Below, piece after piece: positions 1-58,476 of a stretch of DNA of 64,000 nt (the stretch's first letter is position 1; each line of letters opens with the position of its first letter). Source of the stretch: Daucus carota subsp. sativus (lineage: Eukaryota; Streptophyta; Magnoliopsida; Apiales; Apiaceae); assembly GCF_001625215.2 (NCBI RefSeq), contig NC_030387.2, forward strand, positions 2,508,501 to 2,572,500, read 5' to 3'. The notes beneath the pieces are model-generated. The model did not search any database and had not been told where the DNA came from. It worked only from the letters and a program-made list of their open reading frames with translations. The translations under genes and the position numbers were made by a program.

Positions 1-808
1 ATATTCTGTTGATGCTTGTGGAAACAGAAACAGACTGAATCCGAATAACCACTGCAGAGATTAAAAAAAATCATCACTACAATTGATTATAGCACTTGAA
101 GGATTCATTTTTGGTATTTTTTACCAATGTAGACTATTCACTTGCCTGCAATATGAATAAGCATAGAGCAGCCATGCCAATCCATGAATGCAAGCTAGTC
201 ATGTCCTCTAAGTTAAGCTTATCATGATACTTGAATGCAGCATGAATACCAACGATCCCCAGTACTAGTGAGGCCAGGTTAAAGAACATGTGGACGAATT
301 TCTTCACTGTGTGCGCCGCTGCTACAGTCTTGTACGCCATCATTGCTGATTAAAAAAAAATTAAGACAAGATTTTAAGTTCAATACACATGAAAGATCAG
401 GTGTATTTTGGACTGAATTTCACCAGTTAGAGCATGAAGTCCAGTTGCTGGGAACATTAAAATAGTCTACTGGGAACAAATAGGCATTTTGAGAATTAGT
501 ACCTTCTGCAGCAAAAAAGATGAACCCGAAGTACATGAGAAATGGATGAACCTGCATGCCCAAACACCAACAAAAAAAAAATTGAATGAGACGGGGAACA
601 AAATAATTTCAAAATGGATATGAAAATTGAGAAAGTTTACATTGAATACACGAGCCGGATTTTCTGAATCCAAGTCAAGACCTTCGCGGTAATGCAACAG
701 CCAAATAAGCATGAGGACGAGGGCTGTCAACCCCAACAAGTGTGCCAGAACAGTTATTCCTGAAGCTGACCTCTGATAAGTCCTCCGGTCCCCAGTTATT
801 ATATCCAT
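1..808 (-). CDS. Cytochrome b561 family protein (partial, runs off left edge)
   Basis: Ascorbate-reducible di-heme transmembrane cytochrome that moves electrons across a membrane, by family. Exons read on the minus strand are 808-641, 551-503, 345-146 and 51 to beyond position 1. All joins keep frame. The first ATG at 808 is followed by a helix starting VLAHLLGL. Exon 2 carries the heme-ligand VHPFLM motif, exon 3 carries MMAYKTV, a helix and SLHSWIG, and exon 4 starts WLFGFSLFLFP, the usual start of the fifth segment. The third intron begins GCAAGT directly after CAG, so it is a GC-AG intron; ignoring this gives a false stop three codons later. The C-terminal part is outside the window. It lies head-to-head with two plus-strand paralogues and is clearly more divergent from them than they are from each other. 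Family assignment is firm; substrate and membrane are not known. Confidence 0.88.
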
Positions 809-2375: not shown

Positions 2376-2504
2376 GGATATTATTTCTGCGTCGCCCCTT
2401 ATCTACATAGCGATGCTTCCAACATGATTAAGTTAATAATCTTCGTTTCTTCTAATTTCTGTTTCTCCTCTCCATCTTTGCGCATGAGCCCTTCTGGTAC
2501 TGCA

Positions 2505-3744
2505 ATGGTAGATAAAAATGGTTCAAGATTCCGTCTGTCTGCAAAGCCAGTAATTATTTTTGCTCATTTGCTGGTCATTGTAGTAACTACCCTTATACTT
2601 GTTTGGCTCCTGAACTTTCGGGAAGGCATTGCATTCAGATCCAGGACTAAAGAGAAAATCTTTAATGTATTCTTCAGACATCACTGCAAAATATTAGTGA
2701 TATTTTATAATTTTGTTCAAGTTTTAATTTTCCTGGAATTTATTTCTTTCCATTTCTTCTGCTCAGCTGCATCCCCTTCTGATGACTATCGGGTTTGTTT
2801 TGGTAGCTGGAGAAGGTAAGATATCATTAGTTGAGTTTATGGCTGCCATGGTTCAACTTCAACTAATCTCTAAATTTTCAATTGAGAATGTTTTTGTTTA
2901 GACATATAAGCAAATCTAACCTTGTATATTTGCTTCTGAATTAGCAATCATGACTTCTAAGACAGTCCCCTCAGAAAGAGCAAGGAAAACATTTCACTTG
3001 ATCTTGCACTGTGTTGCGCTAGTAGCTGGTACTACTGGTATTTATGCAGCTTTCAAATTCCATAATGAGCTTTCGTTGCCAAATACTTTACATTCCTGGA
3101 TTGGCATGTCCACAATTTGCTTATTCGGCTTGCAGGTACTCTATGCTCGAGAACATCTAGTTCAGGTCACAATTGCAATCTCTGCATGAGTGACAGACTG
3201 ACAGCCTAGCTTGATCATCTATATCAATAAATGACACCTGACATCCGTGGTCTTAATATTATTTCATCATTTCTTGTGTCAGTTTCTGTTAGGCGTATAC
3301 TCGTTCATGTTTCCGGGTGCTAATTCAGGAGCCAGTTCCAGAACGACGAAGTGGCACAGGTTTGTTAGCATCTTCATTTTCCTGATGGCAATAATATCAG
3401 CAGAAACTGGCCTGGTGGAGAAATTTAACATCTTAGGTCTACCGCATGACCAAGAAGATTCGCTCATGAATATTACTGTACTATTAATCCTACTCTCTGG
3501 AGTTGCAGTTTTCCTTAGAACAAGATTAAGCAAGGTGCAGGTGATCAGTGTCATAGTCATTTTCTTGTTGGCAACAACATCTGTAGAATTTAAAAGATTC
3601 ACCCCGCAAGATCTGCTGCGTCGCCAAGAAGCTGTGATAATGAACTTCACTGGAAAAATGATTCAACTCTTTGGCGTTGCAGTTTGTCTTGCAGTCATTC
3701 TTCCCAGACCTCACCAGCAGTCTATTATAACTAAACAACTGTAA
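2505..3744 (+). CDS. Cytochrome b561 family protein with duplicated C-terminal helix pair
   Basis: Exons 2505-2666, 2767-2815, 2945-3135 and 3283-3744 join in frame to a 287-residue protein. Likely heme ligands are His56 (LHPLLM), His92 (LILHC), His120 (TLHSW) and His159 (TKWHRF), the usual four. The start at 2505 has the strong context GCAATGG and gives an N-terminus as long as the minus-strand paralogue's. An upstream in-frame ATG at 2424 is ATA in the tandem partner, and one at 2484 has a poor context. The protein is longer than the usual 220-250 residues because exon 4 repeats the last two helices: a first unit with FLMAIISAETGLVEKF and LLILLSGVAVFL, then a second with FLLATTSVEFKRF and MIQLFGVAVCLAVILP. 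About eight helices are predicted instead of six. The second unit lacks the heme histidine. Confidence 0.9.
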
Positions 3745-3854
3745 TAATAGTTGACTGGAATTAGCAAAGATCTTTAAAGACTCAGTCATATATAGATTTT
3801 AGTGAAAAATCAAAAAAATATTATACTTCTGTTAAGAAAAAGAGACTTGTTCCA

Positions 3855-4225
3855 AAATGTCAACATAAGAACAAGGAAACAATGATAAATAAAAATAATA
3901 CCAAAATTTTGGTAAGTCGCAGACTTGCGATCAGCATCACTTAAAAAAGAAACATAAATCAGTTACACCCCCTGTTGCTTTGCGTTCTCCATTCTCTCCA
4001 ATAAGCTTGCAATATCAGTGTTATAATACAATATGATCCTGATAAATCTTTCTACCAATACCTTGAGGTTTTGAGAGAATTGGTCACTTAAAGATCAGCT
4101 TGCATCCTCAATTTCATCAGTTTCATCTTGTACTAATCAGCGTATGAATTCGTGAAATTTTGAGGTACTCCGTTCTTTTCTCCGCCTTCTCTCAGTTTCT
4201 TGCAAACACAGTTTAGCTAGCTGCG
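3855..4225 (-). pseudogene. Truncated OBERON 3'-end copy
   Basis: This stretch matches the last part of the OBERON gene at about 6640-6920, including TTGCTTTG.GTTCTCCATTCTCTCC, the region of the stop codon, and CAGTTTCTTG.AAACACAGTTTAGCTA. It encodes only the end of the C-terminal coiled coil. About 75 unmatched bases near 4018-4092 interrupt it. No 5' exons are present, so it cannot make an OBERON protein. It lies just downstream of the first tandem cytochrome b561 gene, as the real OBERON end lies downstream of the second, so it is a passenger of the duplication. Confidence 0.85.
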
Positions 4226-4605
4226 AGATCTATAATAGACAAACTAATGATCTTTGTTACATATAACGGTACGTGTCAGTAAAGAGCCTCGGAGTTCTGA
4301 TATACTGTACATGAAGGCCTTGCATTAGAATCCAACATCAAGAACCAAATCAAATCACTGCAGGCCAGGTTCATACACCATTTCTGGTTTTCTCATTTAG
4401 CTTTATTAGCTAACTAATTGTCGTATTGACACCATCTTCATTCATGCAATCAAGTATCAACCACTTTCACTTGGACTGATACAAGGTGCACTACTTCTGC
4501 AAATCCCCTCGTCTACATAGCGATGCTTCCAACATAATAAAGTTTATCACCTTTGTTTCAGTTTCTTTCTCTTTCGGCTTTCTCATGCGCCCTTCTGGTA
4601 CCGCA

Positions 4606-5829
4606 ATGGCAGCTAAAACTGGTTCAAGAATCCGTATGTCCGCGACACCATTGATTATTTTTGCTCATTTGCTGGTCATTGCAGTGACCATCCTTATACT
4701 TGTTTGGCTCCTCAGCTTCCGGGAAGGCATTGCATTTGAATCCAGAAGTAAAGAGAAGATCTTTAATGTACATTTCCATAAACATCTATACAATATACTA
4801 ATGATATCTTAAACCTGGTTTCTAGTTATAAACTTCCAAAATATTTCTTTTTATTTCTTCTGCTCAGCTGCATCCGCTTTTAATGGCTATCGGGTTTGTT
4901 TTGGTAGCAGGAGAAGGTAAGATGTCAGTAGCCATGGTTCTAAATTTCATCATATCGTATTAGGCTCTACTTCTAACACGTTAAGATTTTGATTGTCTAG
5001 TATGGCACGAGAACCTTGACAAGAGCAAAACTAACCGTGTATGATTTGATTTTGAATCAGCACTCATGACTTATAAGACAGTCCCAGAAGGAAGAGGGCG
5101 CGAAAGATTTTACTTGATCTTGCATTGTGTTGCACTAGTAGCTGGAACTATCGGAATTTATGCAGCTTTCAAATTTCACAATGAGCTTTCGATGCCAAAT
5201 ATGAATACTTTTCATTCCTGGATTGGCATGTCTACCTTTTGCCTCTTCGGCTCGCAGGTACTACTCCTATGCTCAAGAACATCTAGTTCAGGTCTCAACT
5301 CACAACTGCAATCTCTGCTAACTAATCAACTTTAACAGGCTGACAGCCTAGTTTGATCCATAGTCTTAATATCGTTACATATTTCTTGTGTCAGTTTCTG
5401 TTGGGCGTATACTCGTTCATGTTTCCCAGTGCAGACGCAAGGGCCAGGTCCAGAACAACGAAGAGACATATGTTCTTTAGCGTAGTCGTTTTCCTGATGG
5501 CAATAATATCAGCAGAAACTGGCCTGGTGGAGAGATTTACCTTCTTAGGACTACCTCACAGACAAAAAGATTTAATAATGAGTTTTACCGGACATTTAAT
5601 TCTACTCTCTGGAGCTGCGGTTATTGTTAGAACAAGATCAAGAATGGTGCAGGCTTTAGTTTGCACAGTCATCTTCTTGTCGGCGATACTATCTGCAGAA
5701 TTTGAGACAGTCACCCACTTAACCTTGCGGCGTCGCCAGGAAGCTGCAATAATAAATAATACTGGAATATTGATTCTACTCTATGGGGTTGCAGTTTGTC
5801 TCGCACTAATTCTTCCGGGACATCAGTAG
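4606..5829 (+). CDS. Cytochrome b561 family protein, tandem duplicate with same extra helix pair
   Basis: Exons 4606-4767, 4868-4916, 5061-5257 and 5395-5829 join in frame to 280 residues. ATG 4606 lies in a strong plant context (CCGCAATGGC). Family signatures are AHLL in helix 1, LHPLLM, LILHCVALVAG, TFHSWIG and FLLGVYSFMFP. Exon 4 again carries two units: FLMAIISAETGLVERF with HLILLSGAAV, then IFLSAILSAEFETV with ILILLYGVAVCLALILP. The internal repeat therefore predates the gene duplication. The fourth heme histidine sits in TKRHMFF, where the partner has TKWHRF. The expected role is transmembrane electron transfer using ascorbate; the effect of two extra helices is unknown. Its 3' end faces OBERON, about 0.9 kb away. 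Confidence 0.9.
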
Positions 5830-6740
5830 CAGTCTATTATAACAAAACAAAACAAAATGTAACCGTTCTCCCCTTTGTCTATGTATTCTCCTACTAATGT
5901 CTCTCCTTCGTTTTTGTTCTATTCTCCTATCAATCAATTAGAATTAGCAACGTTCTTAAAAGACCTGGTAACTATTGTCTACACTAGTACGGGGTTATAG
6001 GTTCAACCTGTCCAGCATATTAAAAGGTTCAAGCACCAAATACTGCAACATGTTAACTGTAACTACCGAAATGCATTTAGCAAATACTACAAGTAAACTG
6101 TAGCCACCGAGATGCATTTAGCTCATAGAATGAACAACAGAACAAATATATCTTAATCTAGTCCATAATGCATAATGTGACAAGGTGTGCCATTTAAGTG
6201 TATGGCATCTGTGTAAAGTTACTATCAGATAACTATTCTGGCAAAATTTTGCTAAAATACCAGAAATATATACAGACAACAAGAATTCTGAATTTTCTAC
6301 AGAGCTGCTGAAAATCTTAAACTCCATCATGCAAAGATATTCAAGGAAGACAATTTGTTACCCCAAACTAAAGAAGGAGAAGGGAAGGATTCCCTGGCAG
6401 TCAGACAATGACAGAGTGTTTGATGAAAAAATTGAACATGATCATGCGAAGAGATTTAATGTAAACAGTTAAAACCAACTACAAACAGAAAACTGTGCCA
6501 GGGCCAGGGCCTTAGGGTGATGAAAAAACCAACGCAATTTGAAACCAAAATCCAACCACCCGTTTGTGTATGAAATCCAGAAACAAACCAAAATCCAACC
6601 ACCCATTTTTGTATGAAATCCAGAAACAAACCAAATCCAAAACGTCAACATAAATAACAAGGAAAGACAGATAAATAAAAGCGATACCAAATTTCTAGGA
6701 AGTTATGATCGGCACCACTTTAAAAGGAAAAAAAAGACAG

Positions 6741-9700
6741 TTACACCCACTGTTGCTTTGTGTTCTCCATTCTCTCCAATAAGCCTGCAATATCAGCTTG
6801 CATCCTTAATTTCATCTTGTAGTAATCAAGGTGCGAATTCTCCAAAACCTTGAGGTCCTCCATCTTTTTCCTCCGCTTTTCCTCAGTTTCTTGTAAACAC
6901 AGTTTAGCTAACTTCTCCGAGTACTCTTCTTCCAACTTCTCATTCTTCATTCTAACCATCCTTCTATACCCTTCTGCTTCCTTCCTTGCCTCGTCGGCCT
7001 TACTCTGGAACATTCTGGCTTCTGCGTCCTTAACTCGCACCACACTTTCTAAGCTTTCAAATCCATCTTTCTTAGGTAACTTTACAGACCATTCATCTTC
7101 AATTATTTTCTCACTCATGAAAGAATTTTTCAGATCATTTTGAAGGAGATTGTGTGGCATCATATCTTGCCTTCCACTTGAAGAGCCTGTGTTGTAGAAA
7201 GATGACTTTGGAGGGAGAGAATTTGATAATGAAAGAGGGGTCGCATCCTTTCTGAGGATGCCTTGAAGTGAAATTAAATCCTTTGAGGCGTCTGTAGAAG
7301 CATGACGACTGGCCATGCTTTCTGCATCTATTAATAAAGCAAAAACCAGGTTACACTTTTTTGTGTTTGTAAAAGGAAAGATAAAGAAAATAAACGAAAT
7401 TGAAATACAAAACACAGCTAGAAACACATTAAGGGTTAAGGGGTACTGCACACATAACCAAAACAATATGGAATGACAAACATATAAGCACCCTCCACCC
7501 TGCATTTGATATCAGGATATTTTATATATTTTGACTAAAACTAGAAGGTAATATACTGCACACATAACCAAAACAATATGGAATGACAAACATATAAACA
7601 CCCTCTACCCTGCATTTGACATCAGGATATTTTATATATTTTGGCTAAAACTAGAAGGTAATATATATAGCCTTGTGCGACATATAATCACTTGACCATT
7701 TATGTTTAAACATAGAAAAATGACTAGGCAATTATATTTACTATGATAATCTTCTGGATAGGAATCAGTTATTTCATATTCTTTTCAAATTCCCATCCAT
7801 TATTTTACAACATAGTCTTCCACTGACATCAATTGATTAGGTTAGTAGTAACCTCCTGTTTTGTATCAATAGGTCTTAATCAAAAAACCAAAGCAAACAC
7901 ATGTACTTCATCAGCCAGCTTCCAACCATAATAAGCATTAAAATTCCAGTTAACTTGCTAAAAATAAGCTAGTCATCCGCTTGCAGAACAAAGCACATTA
8001 TCACATTAATTATAGAATTTCCGAAAAGTTTTAGACACACAAAAGGATAACGTCAGTATGTATTAGTTCTTTTTCTTATTTATTATTAAAACTGATAAAA
8101 GGAATAATAAAACTTCGCTTGAATACTTACTATTGAAAAACTGAAAGATGAAATTGCAGACATCTGAAGGAGACATTATCTTATTCTCAAGCTTCGATAG
8201 CATCTCGTCAGCCCTCCTGTGCAACTCCTTGCCCTTCAAATCTTCACTTCCCCTAAACACTTTACTAACACAATCAAGTTCTTTCACCAAAGTCTCCGGA
8301 GCCCAGGCCTTGGCACATGACATGAAGACATCCTTAACAAATCCAAACATCTCAGAAGCATGACCACAGCCAAGACAGTGAAACTGCATCTCACTAGTTC
8401 CTGATGGACCTTTCAAGCTAGGACCAGGTTTTATGAGATTCCTCTGTAGGGCACAGGCTGCATGGCACCAATGGGAACAAACATCACAACCAACCCAACT
8501 GCAAGTGTTACTGGCACAGTCAAAGTTGAAACAGACGGGACACATGCACTCGCTGCAAAATCCTTTTTTATTCGAGCAAATCTTGCACTCACAATCTTCA
8601 ACTGGCAATATCCTCTTACAGTTTACATTGCGACACCTTTCTAGTAGAAAAATTTCCACCAGTTCAGGCATCGTAAGACGATTTTTGGTAGATAAGAATT
8701 CGCCAAGACCCATTTTTAATGCAGTCATAAGTTCAAGTTGGTTCCTATTTGCCCTTGAAAGAGTCTGACTGCTTAAATCAGATCTTCCCGCAAGCCTATT
8801 CTGAAGGGACAACAGTTCCTGTCTCTTCTGTGGAGTAGCTATGACACTCTTAAGGTATTCCTTTGTGGATTCAATTACTTCATCTGAGAGCTCCTGAACA
8901 ATGTGAGCCATGACCGGAACGGATTCTGATACTATCTCTCGGATAATCCTTTCAGGTCTCGAAAGCTTCCGCTCTCTCCCTCCATCTAAATTCTCTGATC
9001 CCCTCATCTGATCAGATCCGCGGCCCCTTGAATCACCTGACTGAGTGTCCAACTGTGGCCTTGCTGGCAACTCAGAAGGAAAAAATGAATAGTTGTCAGA
9101 GCTTGTTGCCCTATAAAGACTATTAGACAAGTCCTTATTGGCAGGGCGGTTGCCTTGAAGTGCCGGGAAAGCTCCACCACCATGATTGGACAGCACAACA
9201 CCATCTCCAACTGGCCTAAATCGACTATGAACCGATCCATTGGTACCCTCTCCAGCATTCCAGATATAATCACAGTCCCTCCTATGACTCCCCACAGAAT
9301 TCTCATAATTTTCAGTTGAATTCCGGGTCAGGGAGCAACTAGCATTATGCGAAAAGGGGTGTGAATATGAATAAGACATCGAAGCATTAGTAAAATCATT
9401 GGAGTACGTAGTTTGTGTATTATTATTCGAAGGTGCTAAAGATTGCACACTTCTACTAGGCTTTGGAACTCGAGACTCCCCATTCGCCCCCGGATCCGAA
9501 GCAGCCAAAGACAGTGACACATCAGGCAAAGCCAAAGACAAATCAAGAGTCTCCAACTTTGCCTTCTTCTCCCTACTCCCCCCATCACTTCCTTCATATT
9601 CAACCTCCCTTTTCGAAGAATTCTCCCTACTCTCATTCAACTGCAAGAAATCCCTCTCAACCCATCTCCGATCATCTCGAATCGGATCATCAGAAACCAC

Positions 9701-21092: not shown

Positions 21093-21139
21093 AATAATAA
21101 AATTATTTTAAAGAAACAAATTGTTATTATGAAGTTGAA

Positions 21140-22345
21140 TTTATGAAGTTGAGGTAGGGTTTCATCAAGGGTCGGTATTAAGTCCTTTGCTTTTTATAAT
21201 GGTCTTGGATGTGATTACTCGTAATATTCAGGCTCCTATACCTCGGTGTATGCTTTTTGCCGATGATATTGTATTAATCGCTGAGTCTCGGAACGATTTT
21301 AATATAAACCTAGAACGGTGGCGTACATCGCTGGAGGGTTATGAATTGCGTCTGTGCCATTCTAAAACTGAGTACCTATGTGCCAATTTCAGTGAGGAGG
21401 CTCATGAGGAGGAGGTAGCTGTATGTATCGGGGAGGCCCGTGTACCACAAACTAATACATTTAAATACTTGGGTTCTATCATTCAGAATAATGGTGATAT
21501 TTCAGCGGATGTGACTCATCGTATTTTGACGGGATGGCTTCGTTGGAGGGCTGCTACTGGTGTGTTGTGTGATGGAAGTGTACCTTTGAAGTTGAAGGGT
21601 AAATTTTATCGAGTGGCAATCAGACCGTCATTACTATATGGTTCTGAGTGTTGGCCATTGAGAAAGGCTCAGGAACGTCGACTAGAGGCAGCAGAATTGC
21701 GTATGTTGCGTTGGAATTGTGGTAACACTATGACAGATCATATATCGAATGTTATTTTTCGACGCCTTTTAGGGGTTGAGTCTATCTCTAAAAAAATAAA
21801 GTAGGGGCGTTTACGTTGGTATGGACATGTTCGACGTAAATGTAACTCAGCCCCGGTTCAAAGGGTTGAACGCATATCGGTTCGAGGAAAGAGAAAGAGA
21901 GATCAGCCCCGTCGGACGTGGTCTGATCAATTGAGTTTGGACTTGGGAGCCCTAAACCTAAATCTAACGGAAGATATGACATTAGATAAGAATGATTGGC
22001 GACGGCGTATTAGGGTAGTTGAGACTCGGTTTAGTGGCTTACAGGGGTTTTGAGTGTTCTGGTGTTATGCTTTTAGGACAAGGCTCAGGTGCAACAGCTC
22101 AGATCATTCATGGACAGATGCATTGCTGATAGAGGTGAGTCCCATGTGTTAGAAATCATGGCCAAGGTACACCTTACTCATATTTCACATAAAACTTTGT
22201 CTTGCACTAAGCCGGGGGTCTCACGGAAACAGCCTTCTTACTCTAAATGAGTAGGGACATCGTCTGCGTATATTTTACCCTCCACAGACCTGCTCTAAGC
22301 GGGATATACCGGATTTGTTTGATTTTGTTTGGTTTTATTTATCTA
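21140..22345 (+). mobile_element. RTE-clade LINE, 5'-truncated
   Basis: The plus-strand frame runs from GFHQGSVLSPLLF through CMLFADDIVLIAESR (the catalytic DD of reverse transcriptase), FKYLGSIIQNNGDI, RVAIRPSLLYGSECWPL and ELRMLRWNCGNT, then after one in-frame TAG at 21802 continues GRLRWYGHVRRK to a stop at 22051. These are hallmarks of plant RTE elements. The 3' tail has the family-like AACAGCCTTCTTACTC block and ends in TTTG-rich repeats. It lacks the endonuclease and most of the fingers domain, so it is dead. Confidence 0.85.
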
Positions 22346-49635: not shown

Positions 49636-49642
49636 TATAAAT
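49636..49642 (+). promoter_or_regulatory. TATA box of CYP71 copy A
   Basis: TATAAAT lies 101 bases before the ATG. The same box at the same distance precedes copy B (56557). Confidence 0.75.
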
Positions 49643-49736
49643 TGAACATGTACTGCGTCAAAATAATATCATCAACCACATTTCAAATCACAACATCAAA
49701 ACAAGAAAAAAAAGGATCATATTATCTAGGTACCAA

Positions 49737-51360
49737 ATGGCTATCCAGATTGTCCCCATTGCTATGTTCATGGTCATTTCCTTCATGCTTCTCAATCTAC
49801 TCAAAAAATTGTTTCGAAAATCGAAGAAACTTCCTCCAGGGCCATTCAGGCTTCCCATACTAGGCAACTTGTTACAAGTCACTGGCGCACTCCCTCACCG
49901 CAGTCTCTACAATTTATCGAAAACTCACGGCCCCCTCATGCACCTCCAGCTCGGTGAGGTCTCTGCTGTGGTTGTATCGAACCCGAGAGTAGCTAAAGAA
50001 GTTCTCAAGACTCATGATCTCTGCTTTGCTGACCGTCCAACGCTTCTGCTAGGCAACATTATTTTGTCGAATTGCAGAGACATTGTCTTGGCGCGGTATG
50101 GTGAGCACTGGAGGCAGTTTCGAAAAATCTGTACCTTGGAGCTCTTGAGTGCTAATAAAGTGAAATCTTTTAGAAATATAAGGGAAGAGGAGGCGCGGGA
50201 CCTTATCCAATCCATTCAATCAGCGTCAGGGTCTGCGGTTAATGTGAGCGAGAAGGTCTCTAATTTGGCAAACTCGATAACTTGCAGGTCTACAATTGGA
50301 AAGAGATGCAAGTACCAACATGAACTCATTGAGGCTACGGAGAATATAGCTTACTGGGGCGCGGGTTTTTTTATGGCTGATTTGTTTCCTTCTGCGCTGG
50401 TTTTTCCAGTTCTGAGTGGAATGAAGCCTGCACTTAAGAAGGTTCGTCGAGAGCTTGATCATATATTTGATTACATAATAAATGAACATAAGGAGAAGTT
50501 GGCTAGTAGGAAGAATCAAGGAACCAAGCTTGAGGCAGAGGATGAAGACCTTGTTGATATTTTGTTGAGGATTAACGACAGTCTGCAACTCGAATTTCCT
50601 GTCACTTCCAACGACATCCAAGGCATCGTTTTGGTTAGTAATGCCATTTCCTATTTTGAATTGTTATAGTTCTTTAAATTTTGTTCATTTATTCTGTATA
50701 AATCTTTTAGCTTACGGTTCTTATTAATGTTAACAGGATATGTTCACCGCGGGGACTGACACGTCTTCAGCAGTGCTAGAATGGGCAATGTCAGAGCTGA
50801 TGAAAAAGCCAAGCGCGATGAAAAAGGCACAAGATGAGCTGAGAACCGCCTTAAAAGGAAAGGAAAGTATCCGCGAAACTGATATCCAAGGCTTGAGTTA
50901 TCTAAAGCTAGTGATCAAGGAAACGCTACGCTTACATCCCCCGGTTCCCCTGCTACTCCCTAGAGAATGCAGAAAAGAATGCGAAATTGATGGATATACT
51001 ATTCCAGTTGGGACCAAAGTCATGGTAAATGCGTGGGCTATTGGAAGAGACCCCGGGCAATGGGTTGATGCTGACAGTTTCATTCCTGAAAGATTTGATG
51101 GAAGCTCAGTTGATTACATTGGAGCCAACTTCGAGTTTATTCCTTTTGGTGCTGGACGAAGGATGTGCGCAGGAATCTCGTTCGGGATTGCTAGCATTGA
51201 GCTTCCTCTGGCGCAGCTGCTCTATCACTTCGACTGGACTCTTCCTGATGGAATGAAGCCGGAGGATTTGGACATGGATGAAACTTTTGGAGCTACTACG
51301 AAACGAAAGAACAGCTTGTTTTTGAATGCCAGTCCTCACATTTCTAGCATCGAAGAGTGA
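49737..51360 (+). CDS. Cytochrome P450, CYP71 family (copy A)
   Basis: ER-anchored monooxygenase of the CYP71 clan, a group that oxidises terpenoids, phenolics and other specialised metabolites. Exons 49737-50633 and 50737-51360 join in frame (IQGIVL|DMFTAG, the usual CYP71 intron site) to 506 residues. Residues 1-25 are the membrane anchor, followed by KLPPGP at 32-37. The I-helix has AGTDTSS (304-310), the ExxR is KETLRLHPP (Glu361, Arg364), then FIPERF and the heme loop [13 protein letters not shown] with Cys443. All catalytic motifs are intact. It looks closest to CYP71D/CYP726-type enzymes; the subfamily and substrate cannot be read from this sequence. It is about 99% identical to copy B. 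Confidence 0.93.
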
Positions 51361-56563: not shown

Positions 56564-56657
56564 TGAACATGCACTGCGCCAAAAATAATATCATCAACCA
56601 CATTTCAAATCGCAACATCAAAACAAGAAAAAAAAAATCATATTATCTAGGTACCAA

Positions 56658-58476
56658 ATGGCTATCCAGATTGTCCCCATTCTTACGTTCATGGTCATTT
56701 CTTTCATGCTTCTCAATCTCCTGAAAAAATTGTTCCGAAAATCGAAGAAACTCCCTCCAGGGCCATTCAGGCTTCCCATACTAGGCAACTTGTTACAAGT
56801 CACTGGCGCACTCCCTCACCGCAGTCTCTACAATTTATCGAAAACTCACGGCCCCCTCATGCACCTCCAGCTCGGTGAGGTCTCTGCTGTCGTTGTATCG
56901 AACCCGAGAGTCGCTAAAGAAGTTCTCAAGACTCATGACCTCTGTTTTGCTGACCGGCCAACGCTTCTGCTTGGCAACATTATTTTGTCGAATTGCAGAG
57001 ACATTGTCTTGGCGCGGTATGGTGAACACTGGAGACAGTTTCGAAAAATCTGTACCTTGGAGCTTCTGAGTGCTAATAAAGTGAAATCTTTTAGAAATAT
57101 AAGGGAAGAGGAGGCGCGGGACCTTATTCAATCCATTCAATCAGCGTCAGGGTCTGCGGTTAATGTGAGCGAGAAGGTCTCTAATTTGGCAAACTCGATA
57201 ACTTGCAGGTCTACAATTGGAAAGAGATGCAAGTACCAACATGAACTCATTGAGGCTACAGAGAATATAGCTTACTGGGGTGCTGGTTTTTTTATGGCTG
57301 ATTTGTTTCCTTCTGCGCTAGTTTTTCCGGTTCTGAGTGGAATGAAGCCTGCACTTAAGAAGGTTCGTCGAGAGCTTGATCATATATTTGATTACATAAT
57401 CAATGAACATAAGGAGAAGTTGGCTAGTAGAAAGAATCAAGGAACCAAGCTTGATGCAGAGGATGAGGACCTTGTTGATATTTTGTTGAGGATTAACGAC
57501 AGTCTGCAACTCGAATTTCCAGTCACTTCCAACGACATCCAAGGCATCGTTCTGGTTAGTAATGCCATTTCCTATTTTTGAAACGGTTTTTCTTGTGTGT
57601 GGCCATGACACATGCTAAGCATTAAATTTAAAAGTTTAACTCATTTTGATTGGCTCATATTCCTTAATAATGGTGGACCCCTATACAATAACCACACCGA
57701 TCAAAATGACCCAAACATATAAAATTTATTGTTTAGCATGTGACATGACACAGACTAGACAAACCCTTTTTGAAATTGATCTAGTGCTTTAAATTTTGTT
57801 TATTTTTTCTATTATAAATCTTTTAGCTTACGGTTCTTTTTAATGTGTACAGGACATGTTCACCGCGGGGACTGACACGTCTTCAGCAGTGCTAGAATGG
57901 GCAATGTCAGAGCTGATGAAAAAGCCAAGCGTGATGAAAAAGGCACAAGATGAGCTGAGAAACGCCTTAAAGGGAAAGGAAAGTATCCGCGAAACTGACA
58001 TCCAAGGCTTGAGTTATCTAAAGCTAGTGATCAAGGAAACGCTACGCTTACATCCCCCGGTTCCCCTACTACTCCCTAGAGAATGCAGAAAAGAATGCGA
58101 AATTGATGGATATACTATTCCGGTTGGGACCAAAGTGATGGTAAATGCGTGGGCTATTGGAAGAGACCCCGGGCAATGGGTTGATGCTGACAGCTTCATT
58201 CCGGAAAGATTTGATGGAAGCTCAGTTGATTACATTGGAGCCAACTTCGAGTTTATTCCTTTCGGTGCTGGACGAAGGATGTGCGCAGGAATCTCATTCG
58301 GGATTGCTAGCATTGAGCTTCCTCTGGCGCAACTACTCTATCACTTCGACTGGACTCTTCCTGATGGAATGAAACCGGAGGATTTGGACATGGATGAAAC
58401 TTTCGGAGCAACTACTAAACGAAAGAACAGCTTGTTTTTGAATGCCAGTCCTCACATTTCTAAAATCGAAGAATGA
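56658..58476 (+). CDS. Cytochrome P450, CYP71 family (copy B)
   Basis: A near-identical duplicate of copy A: exons 56658-57554 and 57853-58476, 506 residues, with the same splice site phase. All P450 motifs are intact ([41 protein letters not shown]). By eye only six residues differ: A9L and M10T in the membrane anchor, one Glu-to-Asp in the loop before EDEDL, A326V, T336N and S503K near the C-terminus. None touches a catalytic motif, so substrate range may be shared. The intron is 298 bases against 103 in copy A because of a Mutator-like MITE. The promoters differ upstream by a hAT element, so expression could differ more than activity. Confidence 0.93.
57584..57766. mobile_element. Mutator-like MITE in CYP71 copy B intron
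   Basis: It is 183 bases with inverted ends of about 34 bases (GTGGCCATGACACATGCTAA at left; TTAGCATGTGACATGACACA at right). The perfect 9-bp duplication TTTTTGAAA flanks it (57575-57583 and 57767-57775). The copy A intron has the single site CTATTTTGAATTG. It does not alter the splice sites. Confidence 0.92.

Follow-up and report, generated by a model that had tools for sequence, protein, structure and literature searches.

Two tandem genes for cytochrome b561, designated A and B, encode the helix 5-6 pair of the protein twice within their last exon. Plant cytochromes b561 are a family of ascorbate-dependent transmembrane electron carriers. Both genes lie in the window, the 64,000-nucleotide stretch of contig C7 that was analyzed (Table 1). 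In the account that we favor, and hold with somewhat more confidence than doubt, about 185 nt of the last exon (helices 5 and 6) were duplicated in frame, A and B would be made as eight-helix proteins whose extra pair is heme-free and lies at the dimer edge, and A would have an altered electron entry site and B a lost or altered cytoplasmic heme. Judged by sequence, the doubled helix 5-6 pair is a genuine, predicted eight-helix variant within the known b561 family, and the arrangement appears to be a true variation on an established enzyme family, not a new kind of system.

Table 1. Positions of the b561 genes and associated features (window coordinates, except for gene D)
Feature	Position	Strand	Remarks
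Gene A (294 aa), cytochrome b561 whose helix 5-6 pair is doubled	2484..3744	+	GT-AG introns, open frame
Gene A exons (n = 4)	2484-2666, 2767-2815, 2945-3135, 3283-3744	+	Splice sites and frame intact
Gene A exon 4: end of helix 4, unit 1, unit 2	3283..3744	+	
Gene A unit 1 (TTKWH...GVAVFL), residues 162-219	3343..3516	+	Helix 5 with His166 (H4), then helix 6
Gene A unit 2 (RTRLSK...end)	3517..3741	+	Second helix 5-6 pair; Gln227 replaces His
Copied 3' end of neighboring minus-strand gene, between A and B	3851..4222	-	
Gene B (287 aa), tandem sister of A, with its helix 5-6 pair likewise doubled	4585..5829	+	H2 position is Tyr95
Gene B exons (n = 4)	4585-4767, 4868-4916, 5061-5257, 5395-5829	+	
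Gene B unit 1, with His168 (H4)	5455..5628	+	
Gene B unit 2 (RTRSRM...end)	5629..5826	+	Gln229 replaces His
Gene C, ordinary single-unit b561	1..808	-	Exons 641-808, 503-551, 146-345; exon 4 runs from 51 leftwards, leaving the window
Gene D, 222 aa, four exons, one unit then stop	L007 6212-7207, contig C8		

The preliminary description of this DNA held that the last exon of gene A contains an internal duplication of the last two helices. The exon boundaries that it gave are correct, with an AG directly before the exon and a TAA at its end, and both unit sequences that it quoted are present. Gene A matches the Pfam family PF03188 over residues 62-188 (120.1 bits, E 1.1e-34; cut-off 23) and gene B over residues 62-193 (123.7 bits; cut-off 23), and unit 2 therefore lies outside the match in both proteins. 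On gene A, this match and that to the solved Arabidopsis protein discussed below both end short of residue 219, the last of unit 1. Searched by itself, unit 2 of neither gene matched a Pfam model; full-length A gave a sub-threshold match to DUF5466 (residues 219-249, 15 bits; cut-off 25) that was not obtained with B.

Alignment of the two units, which had been proposed as a check, bore out the duplication. The local score of unit 1 against unit 2 was 64 in gene A, far above that of shuffled sequences (23.7 ± 4.3), and 83 in gene B. The crosswise comparisons scored 78 (unit 1 of A with unit 2 of B) and 86 (unit 1 of B with unit 2 of A), and in 2000 shuffles no score as high as any of these arose. 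In a control, unit 2 was aligned with the part of its own protein that precedes it; the score was 23, lower than the mean of 25 obtained with shuffled sequences. When the unit 2 sequences of A and B together were compared by hhalign with helices 5-6 of six single-unit genes from this genome, the match had a probability of 97.7% and an E value of 1.8e-12. At the DNA level, one self-match within exon 4 of A spans 62 nt (73% identity) and another spans 32 nt (81% identity); the repeat was missed by Tandem Repeats Finder. The arrangement is common to two diverged copies, with A-B dS values of 0.38-0.57 depending on the region, and the units within each gene differ by a dS of 0.68 in A and 0.84 in B. 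Both facts argue against an artefact of assembly or duplication, in favor of which nothing was found and which we regard as scarcely conceivable.

An intron hidden within exon 4 would remove one unit and leave a six-helix protein. Gene A does offer an in-frame donor at 3360 with an acceptor at 3518 or 3707, whose summed score of 7.3 is higher than those of all but one of the six real introns in the two genes, as judged by weight matrices of low discriminating power. In gene B, no in-frame candidate among introns of at least 65 nt scored above 0 at both of its sites, the 3360-3518 intron would cut helix 5 right after its histidine, and the GC content of exon 4 is 42-43% as against 26-39% for the real introns. 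Splicing of this kind is thus most improbable, and exon 4 is read here as encoding both units.

Gene B lies about 2 kb downstream of A, has the same four-exon layout and doubled pair, with splice sites and frame likewise intact, and is 72% identical to A over 285 aligned residues. Past the ILP of unit 2 the tails of the two proteins differ by one codon, and the end of A is eight residues longer. Between the two genes, the segment at 3851-4222 matches 6636-6796 at 80% and 6789-6913 at 76% identity, within the neighboring minus-strand gene, which we take to be PHD/OBERON-like. On this sequence evidence the segment is read as a trace of tandem gene duplication in which the 3' end of the next gene was taken along. 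Intron 3 (3136-3282 in A, 5258-5394 in B) is identical between the genes at 103 of 117 positions and intron 2 at 75 of 129; this patchy similarity could reflect local gene conversion. Elsewhere in the window, two tandem genes at 49641-51360 and 56589-58476, presumably P450-like, are very similar to each other, and an open frame at 21139-21804 resembles what we take to be a LINE-type reverse transcriptase fragment.

The preliminary description stated that standard plant members stop after one unit, and other b561 genes of the same genome (441 Mb in 11 contigs) agree with this. The last exon was read in eight b561 genes, a count that leaves out a match on contig C6 and a weak match at C5:42695460. 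Two of the eight, A and B, are doubled, and the other six (C, C', D and genes on C2, C3 and C5) are single. These genome searches score the best candidates only, so that match counts are lower bounds: PF03188 found at least 18 exon matches, and unit 2 of B (E up to 10) at least six, namely unit 2 of B and of A, gene D, unit 1 of B and of A, and the C3 gene. The C6 match belongs to a single-frame gene of 427 residues whose N-terminal part is long and which is presumably of the DOMON-b561 type. Intron 3 of gene C (window 140-146) appears to begin with GC (TTGCAG/GCAAGT) and not GT, and C' has the same residues there. Searches of viral contigs and of bacterial and archaeal genomes with the exon-4 alignment confirmed no relative, as expected for a plant gene.

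Among the single-unit genes, D lies on contig C8 in a cluster with the C-like gene C' and, between the two, an exon-4-like stretch with stops; this stretch (L007 4684-4854) resembles b561 exon 4, has stop codons nearby and is perhaps a relic. D shares with A and B the four-exon layout, 72-73% identity over helices 1-4 and a collinear block: a U-box gene lies 38 kb from A, and its best paralogue (81% identical) lies 36 kb from D in the same orientation. Unlike A and B, D has a single unit and canonical heme and ascorbate residues. As a collinear paralogue, D is taken from its sequence and position to show the undoubled state. In alignments with D, unit 1 of A and B runs parallel to D as far as approximately GVAV, after which the sequence begins again close to the ARSRM of D; B retains RSRM at this point. 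Unit 2 of A and unit 2 of B have in common a three-codon deletion and the replacement of the heme histidine by glutamine.

A tree of the units joined unit 2 of A with unit 2 of B, apart from both unit 1 sequences (support 98.7/99 for DNA and 92.1/92 for protein), which places the internal copy before the A/B split. The favored position of D was outside all four units (78.2/73 for DNA, 81.3/76 for protein), and the alternatives were not rejected (AU p 0.21 for DNA, 0.14-0.145 for protein); by these trees the internal copy probably came after the split from D. Synonymous distances over helices 1-4 were 0.375 for A-B, 0.60 for A-D and 0.61 for B-D, and these, like the dS values between units given above, carry too much noise to show whether the internal copy preceded or followed the split from D.

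Whether the second unit is maintained was approached through codon substitution, indels and hydropathy. On the A-B-D tree, helices 1-4 gave an omega of 0.30 (p 5e-10), a clear indication of purifying selection from the codon comparisons. The corresponding value was 0.54 for unit 1 (p 0.039; 0.60 on the A and B tips, p 0.2), and for unit 2 omega was not significantly below 1, at 0.65 on the A-B-D tree (p 0.11) and 0.80 when only the A and B tips were considered (p 0.53). A counting method gave 0.50 for unit 2, with a bootstrap range of 0.24-1.0. The use of dN/dS as proof of unit 2 function was dropped, as the values are non-significant. Across 168 nt of unit 2 the two genes align without an indel, as against 4.9 expected (P 0.007) at the rate taken from introns (10 events in 343 aligned intron bases); for frameshifts alone P was 0.053. 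In neutral simulations unit 2 stayed open in both lineages in 13-22% of runs, and an open frame is by itself weak evidence. The hydropathy of both unit 2 helices was retained at the level of A in 9.7%, 4.6% and 1.4% of neutral runs at 0.25, 0.37 and 0.5 changes per site, and at approximately the level of B in 3.1%, 1.4% and 0.3%, the latter percentages being somewhat too small because the threshold used for helix 8 of B (2.46) is above its measured value (2.34). Reading frame and hydropathy thus beat the neutral expectation in these sequence comparisons, which leans toward a maintained hydrophobic pair and is not proof of one.

The same data bear on a reading in which the duplication is real and translated and the extra pair is idle, persisting because a C-terminal helix pair is tolerated. 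The non-significant dN/dS of unit 2 agrees with such a harmless passenger, as do the absence of the heme histidine from unit 2 and the changes between A and B in helix 7, which per site are at least as frequent at nonsynonymous as at synonymous positions (12.5/40 versus 3.5/14). The absence of indels and the preserved hydropathy speak against it, as does the retention in unit 2 of both genes of two helix-6 residues, Glu and Asn, which do not vary among the six single-unit genes. We give this reading only limited credence. In another arrangement, compatible with the favored account, the canonical pair would combine helix 5 from unit 1 with helix 6 from unit 2, and the two helices between them would be an inserted hairpin. 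Identity between A and B is higher for unit 1 in helix 5 (12/18 versus 9/18) and for unit 2 in helix 6 (15/22 versus 12/22), and in B the helix-6 Glu and Asn are retained by unit 2 only, unit 1 having Lys and Ser at these positions. However, these contrasts are non-significant (Fisher p 0.11 and 0.61) and A has Glu and Asn in both units. We give the inserted hairpin equally limited credence.

Four heme histidines, H1-H4, define cytochrome b561 in the available text of PMC10691727. Gene A keeps all four (H63, H95, H127 and H166, the last in unit 1), and gene B has H63, Y95, H129 and H168. In the five other genes compared, namely A, C, C', D and the one on C3, H2 is histidine. Exon 3 of B (5061-5257) carries Tyr at heme histidine 2 and Glu at H2-3, and the gene is otherwise intact. 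The cytoplasmic heme site of B looks changed or lost, and B is, to judge by its residues, a member of the b561 family and not an established two-heme b561. The claim that the second unit has lost the heme-ligand histidine holds for both genes, the aligned position being Gln in A and in B; the second pair, which lacks the H4 histidine, cannot form this heme site again.

The cytoplasmic ascorbate positions, named here H2-7, H2-3 and H4-7 after section 18 of PMC10691727 as far as its text was available, are occupied by Arg, Lys and Arg in D and by His, Lys and Arg in C. In A they are Glu, Lys and Ser, and in B Gly, Glu and Arg, so that neither has the full set of basic residues and A keeps one of the three; H2-4 is Arg in both. 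Insect b561 members likewise vary at these positions, according to the same partial source. The departures lower the case for an ordinary ascorbate-dependent b561 and not that for a b561-like fold. By these residues A and B are both predicted to have moved from the standard cytoplasmic entry site, and both, B with its H2 also lost, may be drifting. Positions H4+21 and H4+25 are Glu and Phe in D, Glu and Ile in A, and Glu and Phe in B, although Glu at H4+21 is not universal even in this genome, as the ordinary gene C has Gln there. The three-codon deletion of unit 2 lies directly before the position equivalent to H4+21, where the aligned residue is Lys in A and Glu in B.

Ordinary members of the family have six helices, and the eight predicted for gene A in the preliminary description were recovered as eight hydropathy segments in A and likewise in B. 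An AlphaFold model of exon 4 of A, built from an alignment in which B was the sole additional sequence, had a mean pLDDT of 50.3 and a pTM of 0.30. The long helices in the model span exon residues 19-51, 55-79, 84-105 and 112-139, with no usable arrangement; this low-confidence model agrees with four membrane helices in exon 4 and no more. A search of a limited open-access full-text collection, mostly at listing level, recognized no description of an eight-helix b561. The sole match to "eight transmembrane" together with "cytochrome b561" was PMC12193260, in the available text of which the eight-helix protein is ATP7, and the internal duplication in the corresponding text of PMC4602095 concerns a different protein.

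Taken together, we infer that A and B would have both termini in the cytoplasm and a heme core formed by helices 2-5, with the fourth histidine supplied by helix 5 of unit 1. The extra pair would be packed at the edge where helices 5-6 of ordinary members meet the dimer partner, and would change or replace the partner contact. A probably retains two hemes and would take up electrons via an altered cytoplasmic site, and B probably has lost or altered its cytoplasmic heme.

The proposed packing is drawn from comparison with solved b561 proteins. The fold of single-domain members is compact, with six helices and two hemes, and serves to move electrons one at a time across membranes (PMC10691727, available sections). 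In human Dcytb (5zle), which matches residues 33-218 of A with an E value of 1.4e-16, the hemes lie between helices 2-5, and the homodimer is held through helices 5 and 6 and, apically, also through helix 4 (PMC6123691, available sections). According to the same source, laboratory yeast devoid of its own surface ferric reductases has served as a system for Dcytb. The pair copied in A and B is thus the dimer-contact pair of Dcytb, and by this analogy the second copy might replace helices 5-6 of the partner, giving a self-capped monomer or a forced A:B pairing with a changed cytoplasmic entry site. We consider this extension unlikely as it stands; if true, self-capping would be a new quaternary design of a transmembrane electron carrier, obtained from a single in-exon duplication. 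With copied dimer-contact helices in A and B and the undoubled form in the same genome, the genes offer a natural experiment on helix gain, and a side-by-side comparison of A, B and D bears on what the b561 dimer contact does. The closest solved relative is Arabidopsis transmembrane ascorbate ferrireductase 2, or AtCytb561 (4o6y; E 7.1e-35 over residues 20-218 of A), whose four heme histidines align with those of A; A and B differ from it at the cytoplasmic ascorbate residues. According to the available sections of PMC6123691 and PMC10691727, AtCytb561 was solved with six helices, to which A and B add a second helix pair, whereas the extra 56-residue C-terminal region of Dcytb is described in the former as cytoplasmic and disordered, in contrast to the helix pair predicted at the corresponding end of A and B.
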